A model generated the notes under the pieces. That model was given only the letters and a program-made list of their open reading frames with translations, did no database searches and was not told the origin of the DNA. 64,000 nucleotides of DNA, from positions 1,612,001-1,676,000 of the forward strand of contig NC_019964.1 in NCBI RefSeq assembly GCF_000328525.1. The letters run 5' to 3'. Made by a program: the position numbers and the translations under genes. Positions 42,541 to 62,443 of this stretch are shown piece after piece. Position 1 is the first letter of the stretch, and every line of letters begins with the position of its first letter. This DNA comes from Halovivax ruber XH-70 (GTDB lineage: Archaea; Halobacteriota; Halobacteria; Halobacteriales; Natrialbaceae).

Positions 42541-43116
42541 GTGACGCAGCGTATCCACGGCGAAAACTGTCGCATACACGACGACGCATCGATCGGCACC
42601 GGCGACGGCGAGCCACCGACGATCGGCGACGAGGCCACGATCAGAGCCGGAGCGATCGTCTACGACGACGTCTCGATCGGTGATCGGTTCGCGACCGGAC
42701 ACCACGTCCTGATCCGGGAGGAGACGTCGATCGGTGACGACGTTCTCGTTGGGACGCACACGACGATCGACGGCCGGACGGAGATCGGCTCCGACGTGAG
42801 CATTCAATCGGCGGTCTACGTGCCCACGGAGACGACGATCGGCTCGAACGTCTTCGTCGGTCCCGGGGCCGTGATGACCAACGACGAGTACCCCATCCGG
42901 CAGGACACCGACCTCGTCGGCCCGACGATCGGTGACGGCGCGTCGATCGGGGCGAACGCGACGATCCTCCCCGGTGTGACGATCGGCGAGGGTGCGTTCG
43001 TCGCCGCGGGTTCGGTCGTGACCGAAGACGTCCCTCCCGAGACACTCGCCATCGGCACGCCAGCGCGGACGGAACCGCTTCCTGAGCAGCTCGATCGGCC
43101 AAACCAGCTCGCCTGA
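42541..43116 (+). CDS. Left-handed beta-helix N-acetyltransferase (WbpD-like)
   Basis: 191 residues built almost entirely from hexapeptide repeats (for example IGDEATIRAGAIVYDDVSIG and IGANATILPGVTIGEGAFVA), ending PPETLAIGTPA. Members of this family (WbpD) acetylate the 3-amino group of UDP-2-acetamido-3-amino-3-deoxy-glucuronic acid. The next three genes encode the other steps of that pathway, which supports the assignment. The start is GTG at 42541; the aminotransferase begins 5 bp after the stop. Confidence 0.85.
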   Translation: MTQRIHGENCRIHDDASIGTGDGEPPTIGDEATIRAGAIVYDDVSIGDRFATGHHVLIREETSIGDDVLVGTHTTIDGRTEIGSDVSIQSAVYVPTETTIGSNVFVGPGAVMTNDEYPIRQDTDLVGPTIGDGASIGANATILPGVTIGEGAFVAAGSVVTEDVPPETLAIGTPARTEPLPEQLDRPNQLA

Positions 43117-43121
43117 TCCAC

Positions 43122-44228
43122 ATGGCCGACATCCCACTCGCAGATCCCGATATCGGACCGGCCGCGTTCGATCGCGTCGAGACACTGCTCTCACGCGGAG
43201 AGCTAGCTGACGGTCCCGAAGTCCGACAGTTCGAAGACGAGTTCGCCGACTTCTGTGACGTCTCACACGGTGTGGCGACGTCGAACGGAACGACGGCGTT
43301 GTGTGCGACGCTCAGAGCGTTCGGGGTCGAACGCGGTGATGCGGTCGTCACGAGCCCGTTCTCGTTCGTCGCCAGCGCGAACGCAGTCCGGCTCGCAGGG
43401 GGCCAACCAGTGTTCGCCGACATCGACCCCGAGACTTACACGCTGGACCCTGACGCCGTCCGCCGATGCTGTGACGAACGCGACGACGTAGTCGGCATCC
43501 TCCCGGTTCACCTCTACGGCTGTCCCGCCCCGATGGACGAGTTGACCACGATCGCGGACGAGTACGACCTGTTCGTCGTCGAAGACGCCTGTCAGGCTCA
43601 CGGCGCCTCACTGAACGGGGAGCCCGTCGGCTCGCTCGGCGACGCCGCGTGCTTCTCGTTCTACCCGACGAAGAACATGACGACCGGTGAAGGGGGCATG
43701 GTGACGACGGATTCGACCGCCGTGGCCGACCGGATCGCGCGCTACTGTAATCACGGTCGAGCAACCGGCGACCGTGCGTACGGTCACGTCGAACTCGGAC
43801 ACAACTTCCGAATGACGTCGATCGCGGCGGCGATCGGCCGGCGACAACTGGACCGCTTGCCGGCGCTCAACGACGCCCGTCGGTCACACGCTGCGTACTA
43901 CGACGAACACCTGCCACGCGGTCCGATCGAACGTCCGATCGAACCTGCCGGGGCTCGCCACGTCTACCACCAGTACACGATTCGGACACCGGATCGAGAC
44001 GCACTCGCCGAGTCCCTCGCAGCCGAGGGCATCGATACCGGGGTCTACTACGACACACCCATTCACGAACAACCGGCCTACGACGACGTTCACACGGCCG
44101 CTGGGACCTTCCCGCAGACGGAACTGGCTGCCGACGAAGTCCTGTCGATACCGGTCCACCCGTCACTCGACGACGACGCACGACGGGCCGTCGTCTCTGC
44201 CATCGCGACGCACTTCGAAGAGAGATGA
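43122..44228 (+). CDS. DegT/DnrJ/EryC1 PLP-dependent sugar aminotransferase (WbpE-like)
   Basis: 368 residues. SNGTTALCATLRAFGVERGD, FVVEDACQAHGA and the Schiff-base lysine K184 in FYPTKNMTTGEGG are diagnostic. C-terminal YHQYTIRTPDRDAL and HEQPAY are typical substrate-binding blocks. In context it would transfer an amino group from glutamate to the 3-keto-UDP-sugar acid. Second gene of the four-gene pathway set. Confidence 0.92.
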   Translation: MADIPLADPDIGPAAFDRVETLLSRGELADGPEVRQFEDEFADFCDVSHGVATSNGTTALCATLRAFGVERGDAVVTSPFSFVASANAVRLAGGQPVFADIDPETYTLDPDAVRRCCDERDDVVGILPVHLYGCPAPMDELTTIADEYDLFVVEDACQAHGASLNGEPVGSLGDAACFSFYPTKNMTTGEGGMVTTDSTAVADRIARYCNHGRATGDRAYGHVELGHNFRMTSIAAAIGRRQLDRLPALNDARRSHAAYYDEHLPRGPIERPIEPAGARHVYHQYTIRTPDRDALAESLAAEGIDTGVYYDTPIHEQPAYDDVHTAAGTFPQTELAADEVLSIPVHPSLDDDARRAVVSAIATHFEER

Positions 44229-44336
44229 CCAATCAATTCACTCGCGCTCGCGCCCGCGGGCCGATCGGCGACGGCACGGCACGTGACGGACACGACGATA
44301 CGACCGGCGACGAGCACCCAGACCATTCAACTCCCA

Positions 44337-45335
44337 ATGACAACCACTGAACCGACGACGCCCGTTACGGAACCGCCACGAGCCGGCGTCATCGGCGTCG
44401 GCGCGATGGGCGAGAACCACGTGCGCGTCTACAGCGAATCGAGAGGTGTCGAACTCGCCGGTATCACCGACCTCGACGACGAACTGGCCACCTGCGTCGC
44501 AGACGAATACGGGACGACGGCCCGATCACTGTCGACACTCCTCGAAACGTGTGACCTCGTCTCGATCGCCGTGCCCACCGCGGCGCATTACGAGACCGTG
44601 CGTCGCTGCCTCGACGAAGACGTCCACGTACTCGTCGAGAAACCCCTCACTGCCAGAATCGATCGAGGTCGCGAACTGGCCCAGTTGGCCGACGAACGGG
44701 GGTTGATCCTCCAGGTCGGACACGTCGAACGGTTCAACCCGGCCGTTCGAACCGCAGCTTCGCTCGTCGAGGACCTCGACATCATCGCCATCGAGGCCCA
44801 GCGGCTCGGCCCGCCGATCGACCGCACGGCGACCGATCGGGTCACGCTCGACCTGATGATCCACGACGTCGACGTCGTCCAGTCCCTCCTCGACGACGAG
44901 CCGACGACGATCTCCGCGACGGGGACCGCCGATGGGCAACACGCCACGGCCACGCTCGAGTACGGCGACGTCGTCGCGACGATGACCGCGAGTCGAGTGA
45001 GCCAGCGCAAGGTGCGACGGCTGACGATCACGGCCGCCGACTGTCTGGTCGAAATCGACTACCTCGATCAATCGGTCCTCCTGTATCGCGACTCGTTCCC
45101 CGAATTCGTCAGCGGCGAGGTCGGGACACGCTATCGCCACGAGAGCGTGATCGAACGACCCGAGGTCAACAATCGGGAGCCGTTGCGCGTCGAACTCGAG
45201 TCGTTCGTCGAGGCGGCGACGACCGGCTCGCCACCAGACGTGACTGCCGCCGACGGATTGCGCGCCCTCGAGACGGTCCGCGAGATCGACCGACTCGTCA
45301 CGGGCGAGGCAGACCTGGAGGTGACCACCCAGTGA
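44337..45335 (+). CDS. Gfo/Idh/MocA-family NAD-dependent oxidoreductase (WbpB-like)
   Basis: 332 residues from ATG at 44337; a GTG at 44283 would add 18. The Rossmann start RAGVIGVGAMGENHVRVY, the VEKPLT block (catalytic lysine) and GHVERFNP identify the family. Next to the aminotransferase and acetyltransferase it is the predicted 3-dehydrogenase that makes the 3-keto-UDP-GlcNAcA. It overlaps the following dehydrogenase gene by 4 bp (GTGA). Confidence 0.9.
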   Translation: MTTTEPTTPVTEPPRAGVIGVGAMGENHVRVYSESRGVELAGITDLDDELATCVADEYGTTARSLSTLLETCDLVSIAVPTAAHYETVRRCLDEDVHVLVEKPLTARIDRGRELAQLADERGLILQVGHVERFNPAVRTAASLVEDLDIIAIEAQRLGPPIDRTATDRVTLDLMIHDVDVVQSLLDDEPTTISATGTADGQHATATLEYGDVVATMTASRVSQRKVRRLTITAADCLVEIDYLDQSVLLYRDSFPEFVSGEVGTRYRHESVIERPEVNNREPLRVELESFVEAATTGSPPDVTAADGLRALETVREIDRLVTGEADLEVTTQ

Positions 45336-46768
45336 GCGATTCGATGGTCTCGGGCCTCTACGACGACGCTTCAGAGGCGGACCGACGCAACGACAGTACG
45401 AAAGCGGACCGACGCGACGCACTCACCAGCGGCCGCCTCCCGGTCGCCGTCTACGGCCTTGGCAAGATGGGGCTCCCCCTCGCCGCCGTGTTCGCAGACA
45501 CTGGGATGCGAGTGCTCGGCGTCGACGTCGACCCCGACGTGGTCGATTGCGTCGCGAATGGTGATTGTCACGTCGAGGAACCCGGCCTGGCCCCGCTGGT
45601 GGCCGAACTGGTCGAGACCGGCCGCTTGGACGCGACGACGGACGGGCCAGCCGCCGCTGCCGAGGCCGCGGTCCACGTCATCATCGTGCCGACACTCGTC
45701 CGCGATGGGGGTGAACCCGACCTGTCGACCGTCGAGGCCGTCGTGGCCGATATCTCGACTGGCCTGGCTCCCGGTGATCTCGTCGTCCTGGAATCGACAG
45801 TCCCGCCCCGGACGGCTCGCGACGTCGTGACGCCAACACTCGAGGCGGAGACGGGACTGGACCGGGGGGAATTCGGCGTCGCCGTCTGCCCGGAGCGAAC
45901 GGCGTCGGGGAGAGCCCTCCGGGACATCCGCGGCTCCTACCCGAAGGTCGTCGGCGGGATCGACGCCGAAAGCACCAGGGCGGCCTTGCTCCTGTACGCG
46001 GACGTGACGTCCAATCGGGTCACGCCGGTCGCCGACGCCACCACCGCGGAAGCCGTCAAAGTCTTCGAGGGTATCTACCGCGACGTCAACATCGCGCTCG
46101 CGAACGAACTCGCGACGACGTGTGACGACCTCGGCATCTCCGTCAGGGAAGCGATCGAGACCGCGAATCAGTTACCGGTCTGTGACATTCACGACCCCGG
46201 CCCCGGCGTCGGGGGTCACTGCATTCCCAACTATCCGCACTTCCTCATGGACCGCGTGGAGACCGAAACGCCGCTCACGGCGACCGCACGAGCGGTCAAC
46301 GAGAGGATGCCGATCGTGACTGTCGATCGGCTCGAACACGAACTCGAACGGACGGGCGGCGAGCTTCGGGACGCCTCGGTCGCCGTCCTCGGACTCACGT
46401 ACCGTGCCGGCGTCCCCGAACTTCGCAACGCACCGGCGCTCGACGTGATTGCGGAGCTCGATCGGCGGGGTGCTTCGGTCGTCGCCGTCGATCCGTTCGT
46501 CGATCCGGAGTCGGTCGACATTCCTGGACTGCCGATCGACGACCTTCCTGAAACATCACTGGATGCGGTCGTCCTGACGACACCGCACACGGCGTTCGAC
46601 CGGATCGACTGGGAGACGATCGACCCGCTCGTTCTCGTCGACGCGCGAGACGCACTCTCACTCGAGAATACCCACCATCGTGTCGTTACGCTCGGAGTGG
46701 GAACGCCACCGGACGAGTCCACAACCGCACAGGATCGCTCGATTCTCGGCCAGGTCGACGCACAGTAA
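45332..46768 (+). CDS. UDP-N-acetyl-sugar 6-dehydrogenase (WbpA/WecC-like)
   Basis: 478 residues. An acidic N-terminal extension of about 35 residues precedes the NAD-binding VAVYGLGKMGLPLAAVFAD. The catalytic cysteine C297 lies in GPGVGGHCIPN. The C-terminal UDP-binding domain has VLGLTYRAGVPELRNAPA. It oxidises C6 of UDP-GlcNAc twice to give UDP-GlcNAcA, the first step of the route for which the three upstream genes supply the remaining enzymes. GTG start, translationally coupled to the oxidoreductase. Confidence 0.92.
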   Translation: MSDSMVSGLYDDASEADRRNDSTKADRRDALTSGRLPVAVYGLGKMGLPLAAVFADTGMRVLGVDVDPDVVDCVANGDCHVEEPGLAPLVAELVETGRLDATTDGPAAAAEAAVHVIIVPTLVRDGGEPDLSTVEAVVADISTGLAPGDLVVLESTVPPRTARDVVTPTLEAETGLDRGEFGVAVCPERTASGRALRDIRGSYPKVVGGIDAESTRAALLLYADVTSNRVTPVADATTAEAVKVFEGIYRDVNIALANELATTCDDLGISVREAIETANQLPVCDIHDPGPGVGGHCIPNYPHFLMDRVETETPLTATARAVNERMPIVTVDRLEHELERTGGELRDASVAVLGLTYRAGVPELRNAPALDVIAELDRRGASVVAVDPFVDPESVDIPGLPIDDLPETSLDAVVLTTPHTAFDRIDWETIDPLVLVDARDALSLENTHHRVVTLGVGTPPDESTTAQDRSILGQVDAQ

Positions 46769-48629: not shown

Positions 48630-48681
48630 TTGGGTGACGGACGCCGACGCTCCGTTACAGTTGGGTGACGGACGCCGACGC
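48630..48681. repeat. Two perfect 21-bp direct repeats
   Basis: TTGGGTGACGGACGCCGACG plus one C occurs at 48630-48650 and again at 48661-48681, a period of 31 bp. The second copy is the 3' end of the deacetylase gene, including its stop codon; the first lies just outside it. Confidence 0.85.
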
Positions 48682-49605
48682 CTCAGTGGCGTCCGGCACG
48701 ACAGGCGTATCCGCCGAGCGTGCCCGATCACCGACCTGCCGCATCGTCTCGACCTGGAGGTCCGAAGTCGATCGGCGACGGTCGACGTGCTCGACGATGC
48801 GCTCGAGCCGGTCGGCGTCCGCCGGTGTCGTTAGGTTGTTCGGGTGGAGCCACAGGTGAAAGAGGCCGTCCGACTCGGCCGCCTGATCGATTCCCCGCCG
48901 TGCGAGTTCGACCATCGGATCGTTCCAGAGGCGTTCCGCGGCGCGTCGAAGCGTCCCCTCGAAGCCGAAACAGAACACCGACGCCGGTACGTCGACCAGG
49001 CCGTGGGAATCGATCCGGGGTTCGACGAGGAGCGATTCGTTGCGCGCGAGCGTCGCCAGCACGGACGAGGCACCTTCGGGAAGCGACGTCCGCCCCCGAT
49101 AGACGGAGAATCCCGTCTCTGCGAGCACTTCGAGGTGACCGACTTCGTTACGCGGGAAGACGAACGAATCGAGGGAGAGTCCCCACTCGGCAGCGACCGC
49201 TTTCGCTCGTCGACACTCCTCACGCGCGATCTCTGCAGACGTGTCGGGAGCACCGAACAACACGTGCGAGAACGAGTGCGACGCGATTTCGTGATCGACC
49301 GGCGAGTCGACCAGCCGTTCGACGAGTTCAGGCGCGAACCTGAGGTCGTCCCGATCCGCCCACCCATTGCGTTCGCGCTCAAACCAGTCGGGTGGTGTCG
49401 GGTGGTCGTCGTGACGGCCGTCACACTCCGACAACAGCAGGTGGCCGACGATCGCCCAGGTAGCCGGAACCTCGTACCGATCCAGGATCGTATGGGTCGA
49501 CTCCCAGCCCCAGCGGGCGTTCTCGACCCGGTGACGTGGCAGACGGTCGAGGTCGTGGAACCCCCAGCCGAGCTCCGCATCGATGGAGATGACGACGCTA
49601 CCCAC
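48655..49605 (-). CDS. Polysaccharide deacetylase (NodB-like)
   Basis: 316 residues. NodB motifs are ISIDAELGWGF (catalytic Asp), SHSFSH with the metal-binding H-x3-H (about 108-114), FVFPRNEVGH and a C-terminal LWLHPNNL. It removes N- or O-acetyl groups from a saccharide. No signal peptide, so it would act on a cytoplasmic intermediate such as a lipid-linked sugar. The start is GTG at 49605 with a minus-strand TAACAAA (49658-49664) 52 bp upstream. Confidence 0.88.
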   Translation of the reverse strand: MGSVVISIDAELGWGFHDLDRLPRHRVENARWGWESTHTILDRYEVPATWAIVGHLLLSECDGRHDDHPTPPDWFERERNGWADRDDLRFAPELVERLVDSPVDHEIASHSFSHVLFGAPDTSAEIAREECRRAKAVAAEWGLSLDSFVFPRNEVGHLEVLAETGFSVYRGRTSLPEGASSVLATLARNESLLVEPRIDSHGLVDVPASVFCFGFEGTLRRAAERLWNDPMVELARRGIDQAAESDGLFHLWLHPNNLTTPADADRLERIVEHVDRRRSTSDLQVETMRQVGDRARSADTPVVPDATEASASVTQL

Positions 49606-49881
49606 GTCCGATCACCTCGAACCGAGTGAGCATACCTACCCACCGACGGGGAGTCGGTTTGTTATGGCCGTCGTGTGAACGGTAGGCCCGCCGAACGGGA
49701 AGCGGAGACCGGTTCAGGACAGTATCGAAGGCGAACGTCCTCGAGATCACTTGCAGGCCCGGTACGATGCCAGGTATCGGACCGACCGCCACGCTCGCCT
49801 CACGGTGGGCGTCTGCAGATACTCCTTAACAAAGCCGACCGGGTGCCAACGCAGGCGGTAGCAGGTGTCTCGAGGAACCAT

Positions 49882-51474
49882 ATGTCAGGATCGACAACAG
49901 GGGCCGAGCGCGCGTTCGTGCTCGGCCTCGACGGCGTCCCGTGGCGGTTTATCGAGCGATGGAGCGAGGACGGCACGCTCCCGAATTTCGCCAGACTCCG
50001 CGAGGAAGGTGCGTCGGGACCACTCGACAGTACCCGACCGCCGACGACGCCGCTGGCGTGGCCGTCGATCGCGACCGGCGTCTGGCCGGACAAACACGGC
50101 GTGTACGGGTTTCAAAAGCTCTCGTCCGAGTACACGCATCGGATGTACACGAGCCAGGACATCACGCAGCCCCGGCTCTGGCACCAGCTCTCTCCGTCGA
50201 TCGTCGGCAACGTCCCGCTGACCTATCCGCCGGATGAACTCGACGGTAGCGTCGTCGGCGGCATGATGACGCCGTCGACCGAAACCGACTACACGCACCC
50301 CGACTCACTGGCCGACGAAATCGAGGACGCGATTCCCTCCTATCGGATCAGCCTCGAGTATCCGGAGTACGCAGACGACCTCGAGGCGTTCGAATCCGCC
50401 ATCGACGATCTGCTCGCGGACAGGCGCGCGTTGCTCGATCTCTTGCTCGACCGAACACCGGACTGGCGGTTGTGCTTTTTCGTCTTCACGGCGCCGGACC
50501 GCTTTCAGCACCTCGTCTGGGACGAGGATCGCCTACGCGAGCACTACCGAAAACTCGACTCGATTCTCGGTGACGTGATGGCGTACACGGACGAACGCGA
50601 CGCGAACCTCTTCGTCGTCTCGGATCACGGCTTCGGCGAGATCGAGACGCTCGTCTACGTCAACTATCTGTTAGAGGAGGCCGGGTACCTCACGCGACGC
50701 GACGACGAGGGAACCAGAGGGGCCCTCTCGAAACTCGGCATCACGCGCGATCGCGTGACGAACGTGCTCGCACGAGTCGGCCTCTCCGAGGAACGCCTCG
50801 CGACGACCCTTCCAAGGGGAATCGTCGACTCGGTCGCCGAGTCGATCCCCGGCGACCACGCGCTCTACGACGTCTCCTACCCCGAGACGACCGCGTTCGT
50901 CCACGACGCCGGGAACCTCTACGTCAACGACACCGAACGATTCGCCCACGGGACCGTCGATCCTCGCGACGTCCCCGGCCTCAAATCGGAGGTAACCGAG
51001 CTGTTCGAGTCCGTCACCGATCCAGTGACCGACGAGCGGGTCCTGTCCGTGTTCGACGGTGACGAGTTGTTTCCGACCGACGATCACTCCCCAGACCTCG
51101 TGGTCAACGGGAAGCCCGGATACGAGACCCGCAACGCCATCGTCGACGAACCGTTCGGCGACACCGGCTCGACGGCGGCCAGCCACGAACGCACCGGCAT
51201 CATGTGCTGTCGCGGGCCGGACATCGAGGCTGGCGCGACGCTACGGGGCGCTCGTGTGGTCGACGTCGCCCCGACACTCTTGCACGGACTCGGGGAACCG
51301 GTCCCGGCGAGTGCCGACGGGCGTGTCCTCTTCGACGCGTTCGAGACCGATTCTCCGCCGGCGACCACGAAGGTGCGGCGACGTACCGTGAGCGTACGCG
51401 AACACGACGGCTCGGTCGACGACGATTTCTCGGACGTCGAGACCCGGCTCAAAGGGCTCGGGTACATGGAGTAA
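49882..51474 (+). CDS. Alkaline phosphatase superfamily protein (type I phosphodiesterase/nucleotide pyrophosphatase-like)
   Basis: 530 residues. The metal and nucleophile sites of the fold are visible: FVLGLDGVPW (Asp), RPPTTPLAWPS (Thr nucleophile region), VVSDHGFGE and ASHERTG near the C-terminus. There is no signal peptide or membrane helix. Homologues occur often in haloarchaeal glycan loci and may transfer or remove phosphate-linked head groups on lipid-linked saccharides; the substrate is unknown. ATG at 49882, with a TAACAAA 48 bp upstream. Confidence 0.88.
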   Translation: MSGSTTGAERAFVLGLDGVPWRFIERWSEDGTLPNFARLREEGASGPLDSTRPPTTPLAWPSIATGVWPDKHGVYGFQKLSSEYTHRMYTSQDITQPRLWHQLSPSIVGNVPLTYPPDELDGSVVGGMMTPSTETDYTHPDSLADEIEDAIPSYRISLEYPEYADDLEAFESAIDDLLADRRALLDLLLDRTPDWRLCFFVFTAPDRFQHLVWDEDRLREHYRKLDSILGDVMAYTDERDANLFVVSDHGFGEIETLVYVNYLLEEAGYLTRRDDEGTRGALSKLGITRDRVTNVLARVGLSEERLATTLPRGIVDSVAESIPGDHALYDVSYPETTAFVHDAGNLYVNDTERFAHGTVDPRDVPGLKSEVTELFESVTDPVTDERVLSVFDGDELFPTDDHSPDLVVNGKPGYETRNAIVDEPFGDTGSTAASHERTGIMCCRGPDIEAGATLRGARVVDVAPTLLHGLGEPVPASADGRVLFDAFETDSPPATTKVRRRTVSVREHDGSVDDDFSDVETRLKGLGYME

Positions 51475-51567: not shown

Positions 51568-52878
51568 TCAATTCCGTCCCTGCGCCAGCCGACGCCGAAT
51601 CGTCGACGCCTCGCTCCAGAGTGGATACAGTCGACGGTAGACACCCGTCGGCATGGTTCTGGCGCCGGCCCTGAGCACGCGATGAGAGAGCGGTGGCCGA
51701 GACGAGTCGACGAGCTCGTCCAGGTCCACGGAATCGAGCCACGCGAAGAACGCACGTTCGGCCCGAGAACGCGGTGTCGTCTCTCGTGCTCGATCGCGAA
51801 TGTCGGCCCACATGTGGCGCTCGTCAATCCCGAGGACCCAGTGGCCCCGCTCGAATGATTCCCTGACGGTCCGGTAATCGGCGTCGCTGAAGCGATAGCC
51901 GTGGTCGGTCGGATCGAGCCCGGCGAGTCGAAGACCGATCGCCGTTCTGTAGCACTTTTCGCAACGGCCACAGTTCCCGTCGAGTCGGTCGTTGCAAGTC
52001 TGCAGTTCGAGTTCGTGGGGCGACTCCACGGCGTACGCCGCGAGCAGATCGAGTCGCTCCTGACGCGTGAGTTCGTAGCCGTCGTGGTGGCACTCGGTCC
52101 CCGCCCAGCGAACGTGCCCGTCGATGTCGGGACGCGAACCCCAGGCGAGATCGATCCCCTCCCAGTGTGTCGCAGCGACGTAGAGGTCGCCGATCCCGCT
52201 CGCGTACGCGAGCGGTGCACACAAACCAGTGAGGCCCAGTCCGTGCCCGACCGAACTGTACCACGCACCGTCGACGTGGCGCTTGTAGTGGGCCAGTAAC
52301 ATCGGGTGATCCAGAAACCGGAGCATGTTCGACTCGACGAATGCCGTCTCCAGATCGCGCGGTTCGGCGAACGACTCGACCCGCGCGCGTAACACGTCCC
52401 ACTTGTGATCGTCCGCCGCGTCGGGGGTGATGGTCCACCCACGAATGCTCACGAGCGTCGGCGCTTCGTCGCGATGGCGGACGTACGACGCCGTCGAGTC
52501 GACGCCGCCGGTGAAGAGCAGTCCGCTTCCATCGGTCCGCGCCGGTGGATCGGTCCGCCGCCGCGGTGCGCGGAGCTGCCCGCCCGCTATGAACGAGTGC
52601 ATGTCGCCGAGTGCATCTCGAACGGCTGCGAGCGAGCGAGCGAAGCGCTGGTCGACGACGGGTGCCCGCACGTCGCCGCCGCGAGCCCACGCGACCGGAC
52701 AGAGCTGGGAGAGAACGGGGATCACCAGCACCGATCGGGGAACGTCGTCAATCGGCCGGTCGTAGGACACCTGGAAGGGGTCGCCCGAAAGAAATCGAGA
52801 GAGTCCGCCGGTGGCGCTCACCGTACACTCTAAGTCGGTTCCGTCGGCCTGGATCGCGTCGACGCTGAAAGCTGGCAT
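51568..52878 (-). CDS. PP-loop ATP-pyrophosphatase-like protein of unknown substrate
   Basis: 436 residues. The N-terminal 100 residues are a beta-rich region, then the PP-loop LLFTGGVDSTASY (about 119-131) binds ATP. Downstream is a Cys cluster C-N-D-R ... C-G-R-C-E-K-C (about 294-308) that could hold a metal. PP-loop enzymes adenylate a carbonyl oxygen for amidation or thiolation. It resembles asparagine-synthetase and QueC-like proteins only in the loop. Placement among glycan genes suggests amidation of a sugar acid, by inference only. ATG at 52878. Confidence 0.8.
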   Translation of the reverse strand: MPAFSVDAIQADGTDLECTVSATGGLSRFLSGDPFQVSYDRPIDDVPRSVLVIPVLSQLCPVAWARGGDVRAPVVDQRFARSLAAVRDALGDMHSFIAGGQLRAPRRRTDPPARTDGSGLLFTGGVDSTASYVRHRDEAPTLVSIRGWTITPDAADDHKWDVLRARVESFAEPRDLETAFVESNMLRFLDHPMLLAHYKRHVDGAWYSSVGHGLGLTGLCAPLAYASGIGDLYVAATHWEGIDLAWGSRPDIDGHVRWAGTECHHDGYELTRQERLDLLAAYAVESPHELELQTCNDRLDGNCGRCEKCYRTAIGLRLAGLDPTDHGYRFSDADYRTVRESFERGHWVLGIDERHMWADIRDRARETTPRSRAERAFFAWLDSVDLDELVDSSRPPLSHRVLRAGARTMPTGVYRRLYPLWSEASTIRRRLAQGRN

Positions 52879-53173: not shown

Positions 53174-54982
53174 ATGCGTAAGACGCTCGCCAACGGGTGG
53201 ATCGCCGTCGGATTCGTCGCCGTAGCCATCGCCATCGTCGCCGGCCGACTGCAACCGGCGACCGGATACGAGCCCTCCCTGTACGCGGCGACGCCGGCAC
53301 TCACCTGGCTCTGTCTCGGGCTGGCGTTCGTGGTCGCCGTCCCGACGGCGTTGACCCATCGGGGCATCCACCAGGCACTCGGGATCGGCCTCGGCGGCCT
53401 CGCGGTCACCACCATCGTCTGCCTGCCACTCATCCGCGGCTACACGTTCATCGGAATGGGTGACGGGCTGACGCATCTCGGCTGGACGCGCGACATCCAG
53501 ACGGGAGCGATGGCCCCACACGACCTGTTCTATCCGGGGTTGCACAGTCTCGCGACGGGCCTGTCCACCGTGGGCGGGTTCGACCTCTCGCACGCCCTCT
53601 TGATCGCTGTCGTCGTGTTGTTCGTCCCGTTCGTCCTGTTCGTCCCGCTAACCGTCGACGCGATTACCGACCGGCCGCAGGCCGTCGGCGTCGCAGCGAT
53701 CCTCTCGTGGTTCGTGCTCCCGGTGAACAACGTCGCGACACACATGGGCGCTCACAGCAACACGAATGCGCTCTTTCTCGTCCCCGTGTTCCTCTTCGCC
53801 GTCGTCGCGTACCTCTATCGTCGCGCACCGGTTTCCCTGCCAGTTCTCGGCTCCCCATACGGGGTGCTAGTCGTGTTCGTCGGACTCGGCCTCTTGCTCG
53901 TCCATCCACAACAGCTGGCCAGTGCGGTCGTCGTGCTCGCTTCCATCGCCGCGATTCAGCTCCTGGTCAGACGCCGTTCGAGTGACGATCAACCGATCCT
54001 CGAGCACCCGACGACGACCGCCCACACGGCCGTGCTGGTCGGCGCGTTTTCCGTCTGGGTGCTCGTGAACGAGCGGTTTCGCGACGCCGTCATCGGATTG
54101 GCGTACGGGCTCGCGACGACAGACATCGGCGGTGACGAAGCGGTCGGCCAGCGGCGAGCCTCGCTCACCGAGATCGGCGGGAGCATTCCCGAGTTGTTCG
54201 CGAAGTTGTTCCTGGTGAGTGCGCTGGTCGGCCTCGTGGTCGGGGGATACCTCCTGATCGTCTGGCTCGGTCGAAGTCACGCCAGGCCCAGAACACGCAC
54301 GGCCGCGACGTACCTCGGTGGGGCGCTCGTTCCCCTCGGTGCGATGTTCGCCGTCTATTTCCTCGGCACGCCGACCATGGCCTTCAGGCAGGTGGGCTTC
54401 ATCGCCGTCGTCCTGACGATACTCGGGGCGGTAGCGATCTCCGGGTTCGTCGGTTGGAGTGGTCAGTACGTTCCCCGTGGCCTCTCGACGGGCCTCGTCG
54501 CGATCGTTCTCGGGGCCTGTCTCGTCCTCGCGCTGGCGACGGTCTTCGCTTCACCGTTCATCTACAGTCCCACTCAGCACGTCTCCGAGGGAACCTACCA
54601 CGGCTACGAGACGGCGATCACGAACGGAACCGACCAACCATACGCCGGGTACGGCTACACGACCTACCGGTTCAATCACGCCCTCTACGGCGTCGAAGGA
54701 GTCCCACCCGAACGGGCGGGCATCGTCGGGTCGGGAACCGGCGTGATCGACGCCGACGAGTTCAACGATGAGGACTATCAGTACGCCTACGCGGACGAAG
54801 ATCCCTACTTCCTGGCCGTGAGTTCGTTCGACACCGTTCGCGAACACGACCTCTATCGTGGCCTCAACTACGACCCAGGTGCGTACGAGCGACTCGAGTC
54901 CTACGACGGGTCCTCACGGTACGTCTCGAACGGAGAGTTCGTCCTCTACGAAGTGGCGAGTGGCAGCGACCGGTTCCGGTGA
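53174..54982 (+). CDS. Large polytopic membrane protein (GT-C-like)
   Basis: 602 residues with about 12-13 transmembrane helices over residues 1-465, then an extracytoplasmic acidic, Tyr-rich domain of about 135 residues. GMGDGLTHLGWTRDIQ in the first large loop has the Asp/His arrangement seen in lipid-phosphate-sugar-dependent GT-C transferases, followed by FYPGLHSLATGL. It may be a glycosyltransferase or polymerase using lipid-linked sugars, or a transport protein. A TAACAAA at 52975 is 190 bp upstream. Not assigned to a named family. Confidence 0.75.
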   Translation: MRKTLANGWIAVGFVAVAIAIVAGRLQPATGYEPSLYAATPALTWLCLGLAFVVAVPTALTHRGIHQALGIGLGGLAVTTIVCLPLIRGYTFIGMGDGLTHLGWTRDIQTGAMAPHDLFYPGLHSLATGLSTVGGFDLSHALLIAVVVLFVPFVLFVPLTVDAITDRPQAVGVAAILSWFVLPVNNVATHMGAHSNTNALFLVPVFLFAVVAYLYRRAPVSLPVLGSPYGVLVVFVGLGLLLVHPQQLASAVVVLASIAAIQLLVRRRSSDDQPILEHPTTTAHTAVLVGAFSVWVLVNERFRDAVIGLAYGLATTDIGGDEAVGQRRASLTEIGGSIPELFAKLFLVSALVGLVVGGYLLIVWLGRSHARPRTRTAATYLGGALVPLGAMFAVYFLGTPTMAFRQVGFIAVVLTILGAVAISGFVGWSGQYVPRGLSTGLVAIVLGACLVLALATVFASPFIYSPTQHVSEGTYHGYETAITNGTDQPYAGYGYTTYRFNHALYGVEGVPPERAGIVGSGTGVIDADEFNDEDYQYAYADEDPYFLAVSSFDTVREHDLYRGLNYDPGAYERLESYDGSSRYVSNGEFVLYEVASGSDRFR

Positions 54983-55229
54983 GCTGGTCGATTTTCGCCC
55001 TCGGCAGAGTTCGGTCTCACCTCGATAGGTGACTGACCCACCAGTTGGTGACCGAACAGAGTGTCGGTCGCTCTCACTGTATCGCATCGATAGTCACGTC
55101 GTGACGGATCCCGGCCCGGTCCGCTCGCTGCTTCGGTTAGATCGGTGACTCGTCGAACGATGTGAGAACAAATCGGGAGTGAGTGAGTCGTGAGGCGGAC
55201 ACTCACCGGACCAGACATTAGTTGCATAG

Positions 55230-55266
55230 AAAAGTTTATGTATTAAACGTCCTGTTACGGGAGTGT
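55230..55266 (+). promoter_or_regulatory. Leaderless-type promoter of beta-helix gene 1
   Basis: AAAAGTTTATG at 55230-55240 precedes the ATG at 55267 by 26 bp and is followed by TGTTAC. The same element precedes the other two paralogues at nearly the same distance. TATA-to-ATG spacing fits a leaderless transcript, and no ribosome binding site is visible. Confidence 0.7.
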
Positions 55267-56196
55267 ATGACAGATTACCCCCGCTCTCACGAGTCCCCCA
55301 AACAGACCACCGACGCGAAATCACGACTTACCAGACGTAGTTTCGTGGGATCCGTCGCAGCCGGCGTAACCGCCGCCGCTACCGGTTTCGCCGGGGCAGC
55401 GGCCGCCGACGAAGGCGAGTACGAGACGGTTACCCTGGCGTCGGGAGAGCGGAAAACGGTCACTGTCGACGATGGAGAGACCCTGGAGAACGTCCTGTAC
55501 GACTGCACCGCGCCGGATACGCACGTGACGATCAGCGCGACGGGCACCGACTGGACGGTTCGAAATATTGGCGTCAAAGGCCGCGTCGACAGAAAGGAAG
55601 CCGTCTTCGGCGTCGCCGATACCGGCGGGAACACCTCCACGATCGAGAACGTCTACCTCGGCGATGGTGCCAGCGACGGTCACCGGATCGGCCTGGGTAT
55701 CTGGGTCGCGCCCGACCACTCGGGGCACCTCGACATCGACGGCGTGAACATCCAGGAGATGGGTGACAACTCGTTTTACTGCTCTGCGCCCGGGTCGAAG
55801 GGCGGCGGGACCGTCGACATTCGGAACAGTTACTCGGCGAACTCCTGGGTATCGCACTTCAGACTGGCCGAGGGGACGGTCGAGAACTGCGTCGCCGTGA
55901 ACGACGAGCAGCACAAAGACGGCCGTGGCGTCTGGGCGTGGTCGCCCGGCTCCGTCGAGGTCCGCGACTGTAACCTCGTCATGAACGGCCGCCACTACGC
56001 CGTCGCATCCGGGGCGAACGGCTCCGGGTCTACCGTCGAACTGTCGAATACGGCCTTCTCGACCGACTACCACGGCGGCCTCAACGAGGTCGACGGCGGG
56101 ACGATCGACGTCGTCGACGAAGCCGATCGGCGCCCCGAAGACGTCTGCCCCGAGTCTTGCCCCGAATCGCCGACCGAAGCCGCAGCTGGGCAGTAA
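55267..56196 (+). CDS. Tat-exported right-handed beta-helix protein, paralogue 1
   Basis: 309 residues. The Tat signal is LTRRSFVGSVAAGVTAAATG, ending AAAADE near residue 47. The rest is a parallel beta-helix, with strand repeats such as GNTSTIENVYLGDGAS, GHLDIDGVNIQEMG, TVDIRNSYSANSW and TVENCVAVNDEQH. The fold is that of pectate lyases, epimerases and related uronate-acting proteins. It is the most diverged of three paralogues here (others at 56485 and 60917). The activity is unknown; secreted folded, outside the cell. Confidence 0.85.
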   Translation: MTDYPRSHESPKQTTDAKSRLTRRSFVGSVAAGVTAAATGFAGAAAADEGEYETVTLASGERKTVTVDDGETLENVLYDCTAPDTHVTISATGTDWTVRNIGVKGRVDRKEAVFGVADTGGNTSTIENVYLGDGASDGHRIGLGIWVAPDHSGHLDIDGVNIQEMGDNSFYCSAPGSKGGGTVDIRNSYSANSWVSHFRLAEGTVENCVAVNDEQHKDGRGVWAWSPGSVEVRDCNLVMNGRHYAVASGANGSGSTVELSNTAFSTDYHGGLNEVDGGTIDVVDEADRRPEDVCPESCPESPTEAAAGQ

Positions 56197-56484: not shown

Positions 56485-57498
56485 ATGGCACGTGAACGTC
56501 AGACCGAGAACGAGAAGTCGAGACGACCAGATTCCGAACCCGACCCGCTTGGCCGACGACGGTATCTGCAAGGAATCGGTGCCGCTGGCGCCGCTGTCGT
56601 CGGCATCGGTGCGACCGGTGTCGCGAGCGCGACCGAGTACGAAACGATCACCGTCGGCGCCGGTGACCACCGCGTCGTGAGTCTCGGGGCTGGCGAGACG
56701 TTCGAGAACACGGTGATCGACGTCACGGCCGACGGGGCATCGGCGACGATCGACGCACACGCATCGAACACGACGATCCGCAACGTCGGGTTCGAGGGAC
56801 GGATGGACAGCCCGCCGACGGGGATAATGGGCGTGACCGAACCCGGAAGTGGCACGTCGACGGTCGAGAACGTCTACCTCGGCGACGGTGCGAGTACTGG
56901 CCACCGGCACGGCCTCGGACTCTGGGTCGCGCCCGAGCACTCCGGCCACCTCGTCATCGACGGCGTCAATATCCAGGAGATGGGCGACAACTCGTTCTAC
57001 TGCTCCGCACCGGGTGGAAACGGGACCGTCGAACTCCGAAACTGCTACTCGGCGAACTCCTGGGTGGCTCACTACCGTCTCGCGAAGGGCACCGTCGAGA
57101 ACTGTGTCGCGCTCAACGACGAGCGCCACGAGGACGGTCGCGGTATCTGGGCCTGGGCGCCCGGCACCGTCGAAGTCCGCGACTGTGACCTCGCGATGAA
57201 CGGCCGCCACTACGCCATCGCCGCCGGCGCGAACGGGGCGTCCACGACCGTCGAGGGAACCAATGTCCGGTTCGACACCGGTTTCCACGGCGGGTTGAAG
57301 CAGGCGAACGGCTCGACGATCTCGATAGACGGCGAGACCGACGACCCCGACGGGAGTCGAATCCCAGCTGGTTGCCCGACAAGTGCCGCCGAAGCGGCGT
57401 CTGGGCAGACAGCACAGGAAAACGAATTGGTCACGAGCGATACCGACGAGTCGAACACCGACTGCTGGCTGTCCGACTGGGAGTTCTGGACCGTCTAA
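56485..57498 (+). CDS. Tat-exported right-handed beta-helix protein, paralogue 2
   Basis: 337 residues. An acidic N-terminus, then the Tat signal RRRYLQGIGAAGAAVVGIG. The beta-helix core (about 55-285) contains GRMDSPPTGIMG, STGHRHGLGLWV, NSFYCSAPGG, NSWVAHYRLAKGTVENC and MNGRHYAIAAGANG. The core is nearly identical to paralogue 3 at both protein and DNA level, which implies recent duplication or gene conversion. A short Cys-containing C-terminal tail (about 310-337) differs from the others. Conserved His, Asp and Arg residues in the loops are candidate catalytic or metal ligands. Confidence 0.87.
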   Translation: MARERQTENEKSRRPDSEPDPLGRRRYLQGIGAAGAAVVGIGATGVASATEYETITVGAGDHRVVSLGAGETFENTVIDVTADGASATIDAHASNTTIRNVGFEGRMDSPPTGIMGVTEPGSGTSTVENVYLGDGASTGHRHGLGLWVAPEHSGHLVIDGVNIQEMGDNSFYCSAPGGNGTVELRNCYSANSWVAHYRLAKGTVENCVALNDERHEDGRGIWAWAPGTVEVRDCDLAMNGRHYAIAAGANGASTTVEGTNVRFDTGFHGGLKQANGSTISIDGETDDPDGSRIPAGCPTSAAEAASGQTAQENELVTSDTDESNTDCWLSDWEFWTV

Positions 57499-60881: not shown

Positions 60882-60916
60882 GAAAGTTTATGCCGGTATC
60901 CTTTCGTTACCCGGCT
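60882..60916 (+). promoter_or_regulatory. Leaderless-type promoter of beta-helix gene 3
   Basis: GAAAGTTTATG at 60882-60892 ends 24 bp before the ATG at 60917, followed by TTCGTTACCC. Upstream ACAGATACGAG matches the paralogue 2 promoter. The rest of the 300-bp spacer 60617-60916 shows nothing. Confidence 0.75.
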
Positions 60917-62443
60917 ATGGCACGCGAACCTCCGGAATTCGACGATGAGCAAGCGAACGCTGAAGCGGAGACGGCCGAATCGCCCGCTGGTAACACCGGC
61001 TTACTCCATCGCAGATCCTATCTGCAACTCGCAGGGGCCGCCGTCGGCGGGGCTGCGATCGCCAGCGCAGCCGGTCGCGCGAACGCCGCATCGTACGATG
61101 TCGTCGAGGTCGACGCCGGCTCGCACGAGGTCCTCCGCGTCGGCGCGGGCGAGACACTGGAAAACGTCCTCATCGACGTCACGGCCGACGGGGCATCGGC
61201 GACGATCGATTGTCACGCCCCCAATACGACGGTTCGCAACGTCGGATTCGAGGGTCGGATGGACAGCCCGCCGACGGGAATTATTGGGGCGTCCGACACC
61301 GGTGGCGGAACGTCGGTTATCGAGAACGTCTACCTCGGCGACGGCGCGAGCGCGGGACACCGCCACGGGCTGGGACTGTGGGTATCGCCCGAACACTCCG
61401 GCCACCTCGTTATCGACCGGGTGAACATCCAGGAGATGGGCGACAACTCGTTCTACTGCTCCGCACCGGGCAACAGCGGCACGGTCGAACTGCGAAACTG
61501 CTACTCGGCGAACTCCTGGGTGGCTCACTACCGCCTCGCGAAGGGCACCGTCGAGAACTGCGTCGCGCTCAACGACGAGCGCCACGAGGACGGTCGTGGT
61601 ATCTGGGCCTGGGCACCCGGCACTGTCGAGGTTCGTGACTGCGATCTCGACATGAACGGTCGGCACTATGCCATCGCCGCCGGCGCGAACGGCAGCGGGA
61701 CTCACGTCGCGGTGTCCGACACGCAGTACAGTACGGCGTTCCACGGTGGGATCCGCGAGGCCAACGGGTCCACCGTCGACCTGCAGCAAGGGAACGGAAC
61801 GAATCCCGACGGGAGTCGAATTCCGGACGGGTGCCCCACTAGCGCCAGGGAAGCGGCCGCCGGTGGCCGAACGCAAGTACAGGCGACGAATCGGATCGAG
61901 TTGAGCGGCCAGTTCAGCTACCGGATCGAGGTCGACGGCGAGATCGAACCCGCCGCCGCCCACGCACAGTGGCTCACCGAAGGCGACGCCTACGGCGACG
62001 ACTGGGCGGAGTGGTGGCTCTCCGGGTCCGACGAGGCACGCACCGTCTGGGAGTACACCGGGGACATCACCTCGCTGGAGGTGACCGAGTACGACGGCAC
62101 CACGAGCGTTCGGACACTGGCGGTGAACGGCGACGAACTCGACCACGACAGGTACGTCACGCCGAGTTCACACACTCTCTCACTCGCTGGCCAGTTCAGC
62201 TACCGGATCGAGGTCGACGGCGAGATCGAACCGGCACCCGCCCACGCACAGTGGCTCACCGAGGGTGAGGCCTACGGCGACGACTGGGCGGAGTGGTGGC
62301 TCTCTGGATCCGACGAAGCACGCACCGTCTGGGAGTACACCGGTGACATCACCTCGCTGGACATCAGTCCACACCGGGACCGGACCGAAGTCCGAACGTT
62401 CGCCATCGACGGCGAATCCGTCGATCCCGAGCGCTTCGAGTAG
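60917..62443 (+). CDS. Tat-exported beta-helix protein, paralogue 3, with duplicated C-terminal domain
   Basis: 508 residues. The Tat signal begins at LLHRRSYLQLAGAAVGGAA. The beta-helix core (about 70-315) is nearly the same as paralogue 2 (GRMDSPPTGIIG, AGHRHGLGLWV, NSFYCSAPGN). Two C-terminal repeats of about 94 residues follow, each opening GQFSYRIEVDGEIEP and containing WAEWWLSGSDEARTVWEYTG. These look like small beta-sandwich modules, possibly carbohydrate-binding. ATG at 60917 by comparison with paralogue 2. A secreted polysaccharide-acting or -binding protein is the best guess. Confidence 0.87.
   Translation: MAREPPEFDDEQANAEAETAESPAGNTGLLHRRSYLQLAGAAVGGAAIASAAGRANAASYDVVEVDAGSHEVLRVGAGETLENVLIDVTADGASATIDCHAPNTTVRNVGFEGRMDSPPTGIIGASDTGGGTSVIENVYLGDGASAGHRHGLGLWVSPEHSGHLVIDRVNIQEMGDNSFYCSAPGNSGTVELRNCYSANSWVAHYRLAKGTVENCVALNDERHEDGRGIWAWAPGTVEVRDCDLDMNGRHYAIAAGANGSGTHVAVSDTQYSTAFHGGIREANGSTVDLQQGNGTNPDGSRIPDGCPTSAREAAAGGRTQVQATNRIELSGQFSYRIEVDGEIEPAAAHAQWLTEGDAYGDDWAEWWLSGSDEARTVWEYTGDITSLEVTEYDGTTSVRTLAVNGDELDHDRYVTPSSHTLSLAGQFSYRIEVDGEIEPAPAHAQWLTEGEAYGDDWAEWWLSGSDEARTVWEYTGDITSLDISPHRDRTEVRTFAIDGESVDPERFE
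61907..62361 (+). repeat. Intragenic tandem duplication of the C-terminal domain
   Basis: Copies at 61907-62079 and 62189-62361 (173 bp each, period 282 bp, that is 94 codons) are almost identical in DNA as well as protein. This points to recent duplication or homogenisation. Confidence 0.9.

Follow-up and report, generated by a model that had tools for sequence, protein, structure and literature searches.

A predicted QueC/QatC-fold PP-loop ATPase of haloarchaeal glycan loci and its co-inherited membrane protein

A PP-loop gene of Halovivax ruber and its sequence motifs

The window, the stretch of 64,000 nucleotides of Halovivax ruber XH-70 contig NC_019964.1 that was analyzed, carries on its minus strand a gene for a PP-loop ATPase designated P0001 (Table 1). 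The plus strand of the same interval contains stops in every frame (4, 12, and 9). The product is 96% identical to a relative from Halovivax asiaticus (L032), and the two genes differ at 11, 9, and 59 sites in codon positions 1, 2, and 3, respectively, with 55 synonymous and 17 nonsynonymous codon changes. These biases in codon position and toward synonymous change identify a genuine protein gene on the minus strand that is under purifying selection.

Table 1. Features of the P0001 region (positions in the window).
Feature	Position	Strand	Remarks
PP-loop ATPase gene (P0001), predicted QatC/QueC fold	51568-52878	minus	436 aa; coordinates include the stop codon
PP-loop FTGGVDST	52492-52515	minus	Residues 122-129 of P0001
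Putative structural zinc site C295-x7-C303-x2-C306-x2-C309	51952-51996	minus	Cysteine conservation
WGSRP	52129-52143	minus	Residues 246-250; family signature WG[ST]xP
N-terminal domain	52543-52878	minus	Residues ~1-112; common to QatC, absent from QueC
602-aa membrane protein	53174-54982	plus	Divergent from the P0001 gene; 295-bp gap
Type I phosphodiesterase/nucleotide pyrophosphatase family protein (PF01663)	49675-51474	plus	
Polysaccharide deacetylase family protein (PF01522)	48655-49605	minus	Relative in 22/28 loci
Beta-helix-type protein	55222-56196	plus	Twin-arginine-like start (by eye); no Pfam match
Second beta-helix-type protein	56485-57498	plus	40% identical to an annotated one; 27/28 loci
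Related beta-helix-type protein	60890-62443		Twin-arginine-like start
Four diacetamido-uronate-type genes	42541-46768	plus	Neighbours outside the conserved unit

The preliminary description of this DNA had reported a PP-loop, GGVDST, and a cluster of three cysteines. The former was confirmed. The loop of P0001, FTGGVDS, differs from the strict pattern SGGxDS, which is found in 14 of the 47 sequences of the family; a relaxed PP-loop pattern matches 45 of them. The cysteine cluster is also present but was described too short, since it comprises four residues. All four are invariant in the 20 relatives of alignment A1 and in the 16 very diverse relatives of alignment A3. In the latter set, A63, G125, D127, and R272 are likewise invariant, and F122 and G124 are almost so. 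By analogy with QueC and QatC, the four cysteines probably bind zinc in a structural role.

A further signature, WG[ST][HRNC]P, was detected in 35 of the 47 family members and in none of nine QatC sequences or the single QueC sequence. This motif was placed near the substrate motif of QueC (YPDC) or QatC (TxT) by hhalign alone, and the placement is therefore approximate.

Relationship of P0001 to QueC, QatC, and other PP-loop enzymes

Searches with the single P0001 sequence identified no family in Pfam (up to E 10), NCBIfam, or PADLOC (up to E 10), no match in PHROGs, and no chain among the PDB sequences. Comparison of the A1 profile (20 relatives) with the PDB returned a designed miniprotein first (E 0.027) and QatC second, at an insignificant E value of 0.62. 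For hhalign, a profile was built from 45 of 46 sequences, the Paracoccus protein (558 aa, with an extra N-terminal part) being dropped. This profile matched nine haloarchaeal QatC sequences with 95.7% probability over 255 columns that include the N-terminal domain, the alignment starting at profile column 40. The QueC of the same genome followed (87.9%, 200 columns), as did one DUF6395 protein (79.0%, 90 columns) and five further PP-loop proteins encoded by that genome (6.6-28.0%). Because these probabilities were obtained without a database background, the ranking alone is meaningful, and it is tilted somewhat to QatC because only the QatC target was a multi-sequence profile (nine sequences, six of them near-identical), QueC, DUF6395, and the five controls being single sequences.

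Structural prediction pointed in the same direction. A first AF2 model of P0001, based on 15 sequences, was too poor (pLDDT 61.0), and Foldseek returned nothing below E 0.012 with it. A second model, based on 19 sequences including one phage sequence 32% identical to P0001, reached a pLDDT of 85.6 and a pTM of 0.87. Foldseek placed QatC (PDB 9y01) first with this model (E 5.5e-6), in a superposition that is loose over the whole chain (TMq 0.40, rmsd 13.7), and gave E 2.2e-3 for QueC (3bl5). VIA also ranked QatC at the top (Z 13.7, rmsd 5.0, 300 aligned residues, model residues 1-364), followed by QueC 2pg3 (Z 11.8, rmsd 4.0, 191 aligned residues, model residues 115-367). The structural alignments reach only to model residues 364-380, in a helical region spanning residues 333-432; in QatC, the C-terminal helices bind QatB. 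According to the profile and the AF2 model, P0001 is predicted to combine a QueC core with a QatC-type N-terminal domain. The preliminary description had recognized no QueC domain, which holds for single-sequence searches of the libraries but not at the level of profile and fold, at which the closest matches are QatC and QueC.

P0001 shares its core fold with QueC (PF06508; PDB 3bl5, 2pg3) and differs from it by the additional N-terminal domain. The cysteine spacing is alike within one residue, the zinc site of QueC being C(x)8CxxCxxC. The pattern C-x(5,9)-C-x2-C-x2-C was found in 45 of 47 family members and the exact x8 spacing in 19 of 47; the QueC of the same genome also deviates from exact x8. 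P0001 does not match PF06508, which is not among the five families matched by any of the 20 members tested (E 1). The substrate motifs of QueC, YxQxHxxE, VPxRN, and YPDC (PMC13329287), were each found in 0 of 47 family members. The QueC of the same genome has VPxRN and YPDC and is devoid of an exact YxQxHxxE; the latter motif is therefore uninformative here.

These comparisons bear on the possibility that P0001 is a housekeeping QueC or an enzyme of tRNA archaeosine synthesis, which the preliminary description had named among the outcomes that would refute its own proposal. Apart from the shared core fold, the evidence is against it: a separate QueC is encoded in the same genome (E 5.8e-65), no family member (0 of 47) has VPxRN or YPDC, and an orthologue is absent from 13 of 125 Natrialbaceae genomes. 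This role is already strongly disfavoured and hardly credible.

In the qatABCD system of phage defence, QatC is the QueC-like component. It is the best match of P0001 both by profile and by fold, and its structures (PDB 9y01, 9y02) have a PP-loop, a QueC core, a C-terminal four-cysteine site, and an N-terminal extension, as does P0001. The extension before the QueC core is aligned with that of QatC from residue 1 by VIA and within the 255 columns of hhalign. The two proteins differ in cysteine spacing, C-x7-C in P0001 and C-x19-C in QatC (numbering of PMC13279940). Of the published motifs (lists of PMC13329287), P(x)4TK, TxHP, and C(x)19CGxC were found in 1, 1, and 3 of 47 family members, respectively, as opposed to 9, 6, and 6 of 9 haloarchaeal QatC proteins, and all three are missing from P0001 itself. 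Three others, D(x)4R(x)7WxR, Dx[WY]xxxF, and RxRxxx[FY], were found in 0, 0, and 17 of 47 members (P0001 has the last); these do not separate the families, since they occur in only 0, 4, and 0 of 9 haloarchaeal QatC proteins.

The PADLOC QatC model was matched by one of 20 family members (E 8.4e-4) and by nothing in genome G000 at E 0.01. The P0001 gene stands in a context of glycan genes, unlike QatC in its qatABCD operon, and no TatD or KAP family gene was detected among the ten window neighbours scanned, qatB having no model. In QatC, the Tyr/Asp pair that binds the nucleobase in QueC is replaced by threonines, and the reaction is described as unresolved (PMC13279940); the P0001 family appears to differ from both enzymes at this position in the hhalign alignment, which is approximate. 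Membership of QatC was thus rejected on motifs, PADLOC model, and neighbours. As P0001 lacks VPxRN and YPDC of QueC as well as P(x)4TK and TxHP of QatC and coexists with a QueC in the genome, we file it under neither family. QatC homologues were detected by PADLOC in nine of 242 haloarchaeal genomes (L119-L127; E 4.4e-41 to 1.4e-21).

The preliminary description had named WbpG-type amidotransferases and asparagine synthetase, beside QueC, as enzymes to be compared with P0001, and neither proved to be its nearest relative. WbpG/WbuX (TIGR03573; PDB 8wex) is a PP-loop ATPase of surface-polysaccharide synthesis assigned to Cluster 5 in PMC13329287. In the Foldseek comparison with the P0001 model, 8wex ranked 18th (E 0.022, TMq 0.26), and asparagine synthetase (1ct9) obtained E 0.21; both were rejected as nearest kin in view of the E value of 5.5e-6 for QatC. 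The WbpG type is missing from the VIA rows, an absence that excludes nothing. P0001 matches no NCBIfam model, TIGR03573 included, and no Pfam asparagine synthase domain. TIGR03573 had no match in G000 at E 0.01, and a search for WbuX gave 0 of 59 genomes above the cut-off, with sub-threshold matches only.

The next structural matches after QueC include LarE (VIA Z 9.9), MnmA (Z 9.4), and TtuA (Foldseek E 5.0e-3). Together with the four cysteines of P0001, they suggest sulfur chemistry, that is formation of a thioacid or thioamide, as an alternative. QatC and QueC nevertheless score higher, and the cysteines are spaced as in the zinc site of QueC and do not appear to follow the three-cysteine iron-sulfur motif given for LarE (PMC13329287). 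We consider sulfur chemistry very unlikely.

DUF6395 (PF19932) resembles P0001 in the one member that was read, P0002, which combines a PP-loop with C-x9-C-x2-C-x2-C. This combination makes DUF6395 look like another QueC-like family. Similarity to A1 members was weak (3 of 20, best E 0.12, none significant), and the match in the genome of P0001 was below the cut-off (E 0.517). A scan of plasmids for DUF6395 gave two records, and a literature search on this family found nothing. P0002 is encoded on a Priestia megaterium plasmid (L113:17561-18877, minus strand) that also carries two tandem P0001 relatives.

Distribution and co-inherited genes

Of 125 Natrialbaceae genomes, 113 contain a relative of P0001 and 112 an orthologue, G008 being set to absent as it has a 48% paralogue alone. 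In a sample of the class, 103 of 391 genomes matched P0001 (92 within Natrialbaceae and 11 outside), several of them with two or three matches; in a sample of the phylum, 23 of 392 matched, two of these outside the class. The gene is carried by plasmids in at least 11 Natrialbaceae plasmid records, and relatives were detected in plasmid records of Priestia, Pseudobutyrivibrio, Azospirillum, Gloeothece, Nostoc, Gemmobacter, and Paracoccus. In L037, L144, and other Natrialbaceae records, the gene lies together with its locus on a large plasmid and not on the chromosome.

Twenty-eight Natrialbaceae loci of 14-21 kb were searched by tblastn with the proteins of the window (E 1e-10). Every one of them contains a P0001 relative, which is broken into two pieces in L047. 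The neighbours recovered most often were the phosphodiesterase-family protein (28 loci), the 602-aa membrane protein (27), and the beta-helix protein (27), followed by the polysaccharide deacetylase (22), a glycosyltransferase (17), the Gfo/Idh protein (9), a flippase (7), the nucleotide-sugar dehydrogenase (6), the aminotransferase (4), the hexapeptide transferase (4), and a second glycosyltransferase (2). The PP-loop gene is also split into two adjacent matches in G056, G070, and G072; G070 has an intact copy elsewhere in the genome.

The preliminary description had placed P0001 among sugar-acid genes. This is true for the window, in which a hexapeptide acyltransferase, a DegT aminotransferase, a Gfo/Idh protein resembling UDP-GlcNAc 3-dehydrogenase, and a nucleotide-sugar dehydrogenase are encoded, but it is not a rule across the family. 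The diacetamido-uronate genes adjoin in 4 to 6 of 28 loci (4/28, 4/28, and 6/28, as opposed to 27/28 for the membrane protein and 28/28 for the phosphodiesterase), so that they are no fixed partner of P0001, and the link proposed on their account was abandoned. Amidation of the carboxylate of the 2,3-diacetamido-uronate of the locus itself has accordingly little chance of being the function: the genes for this sugar lie 5-9 kb away in the window, but a P0001 relative occurs in all 28 loci.

The neighbour most tightly associated with P0001 is the membrane protein. It was matched in 114 of 125 genomes, of which G003 and G004 hold only 36-37% paralogues and were set to absent. Orthologues of both proteins are thus found in 112 of 125 genomes and neither in the same 13, never one alone; by eye, the two genes are within 10 kb of each other in 110 of the 112, and G079 and G084 have kept both far apart. 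Both are absent from all of genera g2 and g7, from G008 (g3), G020 (g9, 83% complete), and G094 (g19), and from G116 and G124 (66% and 53% complete). Incomplete genomes (53-70%) include G035, G116, G121, G123, and G124. The losses represent more than one event, and the membrane protein is strictly co-inherited with P0001 in Natrialbaceae.

In this protein, 15 hydrophobic windows were counted, which correspond to ~13 segments since some overlap, and ~140 aa make up a C-terminal part; this layout is suggestive of a GT-C-like glycosyltransferase topology. No supporting match was found in Pfam, NCBIfam, or the PDB sequences, the latter also with a profile (0 matches); one relative matched DUF6541 below the cut-off.

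As a partner, the phosphodiesterase gene is weaker than that of the membrane protein: G094 and G116 have close matches in the absence of the PP-loop gene, and in G123 (70% complete) the PP-loop gene is accompanied by no close phosphodiesterase match. Its ORF opens with GTG, but in many relatives the match begins only around residues 57-70, and translation may therefore start some 57-70 codons further downstream.

The three beta-helix-type proteins listed in Table 1 are related (55-71% mutual identity), and each has a twin-arginine-like start. The first is 37% identical to an annotated right-handed parallel beta-helix protein, and the two tested matched 0 Pfam families. The second may belong to the P0001 unit.

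The Natrialbaceae gene unit is not kept outside the family. None of 11 window neighbours was found in six distant haloarchaeal loci, and the membrane and beta-helix proteins were found in none of 16 further loci outside Natrialbaceae, of which only L106 contained related genes (two phosphodiesterase-like, 29%, and one deacetylase-like, 48%). Other genes near the distant relatives were an annotated ATP-grasp gene (L145), an ATP-grasp-like gene below Pfam cut-offs (L104), a GNAT (Acetyltransf_6, FemAB-like) cluster (L096, L098, L106, and L111), and an FkbM methyltransferase gene (L101).

Bacterial context was read from ten plasmid loci (L113-L118 and L140-L143), several from the same genera and with incomplete PLSDB gene tables. 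In eight of the ten, a gene of the polysaccharide pyruvyl transferase family is at most one listed gene away from the relative, and the six such neighbours tested all matched PF04230. Some loci are also near genes for glycosyltransferases, GalU, UDP-glucose dehydrogenase, formyltransferase, ATP-grasp, or GNAT proteins. The Nostoc and Paracoccus loci have no annotated pyruvyl-transferase neighbour; polysaccharide genes lie some kilobases off in Nostoc, and none is annotated in the Paracoccus stretch. Bacterial relatives are thus mostly found in polysaccharide loci. The relative on the Paracoccus yeei plasmid (L142:7449-9125) is longer by ~190 residues at its N-terminus, and its PP-loop reads SCGVDS, an altered form; the whole protein has no Pfam match.

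A motif scan of viral contigs gave a single match, L157:3703-4989 (IMG/VR IMGVR_UViG_3300025735_000053), encoding a protein of 428 aa with 32% identity to P0001. The gene is on the plus strand, and the flanking endolysin (PHROG 2649, E 6.1e-66), tail, and baseplate genes are on the minus strand. Such a position is usual for a moron, and that it serves surface conversion is our guess. Searching 50,697 phage records with P0001 gave no match, and viral scans with the A1 profile and with QueC returned nothing useful.

Proposed function in surface-glycan assembly

QueC activates the carboxylate of CDG with ATP for attack by ammonia to form an amide; in Cap9, the place of ammonia is taken by an N-terminal amine, to which CDG becomes joined (PMC13279940). 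Combined with the glycan context of P0001, this chemistry suggests amide formation at a glycan acid or at an acidic substituent. Our preferred reading is that P0001 is an ATP-dependent ligase of QueC/QatC fold that would form an amide on a carboxylate of a surface glycan; we tentatively give it a probability of about 40%. P0001 would probably be cytoplasmic and serve surface-glycan assembly. ATP would be bound by the PP-loop. A glycan building block, or a substituent that it bears, would be adenylated at a carboxylate with release of pyrophosphate, followed by attack of an amine (ammonia or an amino compound) to give the amide. A structural zinc would be bound by the four cysteines, and binding of the substrate or a partner is the probable role of the N-terminal domain common to QatC. 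The product would then pass to the membrane protein of the divergent gene, probably a transferase of lipid-linked sugars, such an activity and the order of the steps being conjectural.

Of the ATP-dependent amidation of a uronic acid advanced in the preliminary description, the amidation stands as natural chemistry for a QueC-like enzyme of glycan loci; a fixed link to the diacetamido-uronate does not. Since VPxRN and YPDC of QueC are absent from all 47 family members and P(x)4TK and TxHP of QatC from 46 each, the chemistry of these enzymes is not transferable residue by residue. A search of open-licence papers found no activity, product, or glycan structure for this organism. Pyruvyl ketals formed by true pyruvyl transferases bear a carboxylate, which would be one candidate target of amidation in bacteria. 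Against a glycan substrate, co-location with a glycan locus is no proof, the Paracoccus locus has no annotated polysaccharide genes, two of the ten bacterial loci have no annotated pyruvyl-transferase neighbour, and the gene unit of Natrialbaceae is lost outside that family.

P0001 could alternatively modify a protein. Cap9 uses protein N-termini, and the same has been proposed for QatC (PMC13279940). The partner would here be a component of the glycan or export machinery, to which P0001 would link a small carboxylate, either N-terminally or at a side chain. QatC is indeed the closest fold, with the N-terminal domain in common, and a strictly co-inherited partner protein exists. That partner is, however, a membrane protein, the ten window neighbours include no TatD or KAP family gene, and the bacterial relatives are flanked by other gene families than the Natrialbaceae ones. 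Protein modification is in our opinion unlikely.

The phage copy, with endolysin and tail genes of the opposite strand on either side of it, and the defence role of QatC raise another possibility, that P0001 alters a phage receptor and was selected for phage exclusion by seroconversion. Against this, a relative was found in a single phage contig, and a gene that 112 of the 125 Natrialbaceae genomes possess seems to have a steady role. Selection for phage exclusion is distinctly improbable; it would be compatible with amide formation on a glycan.

More broadly, the relatives in haloarchaea, Bacillota, Cyanobacteria, Alphaproteobacteria, and a phage may form a pan-domain family of QatC type that builds amide-linked non-sugar substituents of glycans, of which the defence QatC would be a branch and which phages would carry as a moron. 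We regard this extension as possible but doubtful.

The reaction of QatC is presented as an open question in phage defence (PMC13279940). P0001, which no model of the four family libraries recognizes, offers a second system for the two-domain architecture of QatC, in a harmless haloarchaeon, in a glycan context, and with one gene and one strictly co-inherited partner. If it acts on glycans, P0001 adds QueC-fold chemistry to surface polysaccharides.
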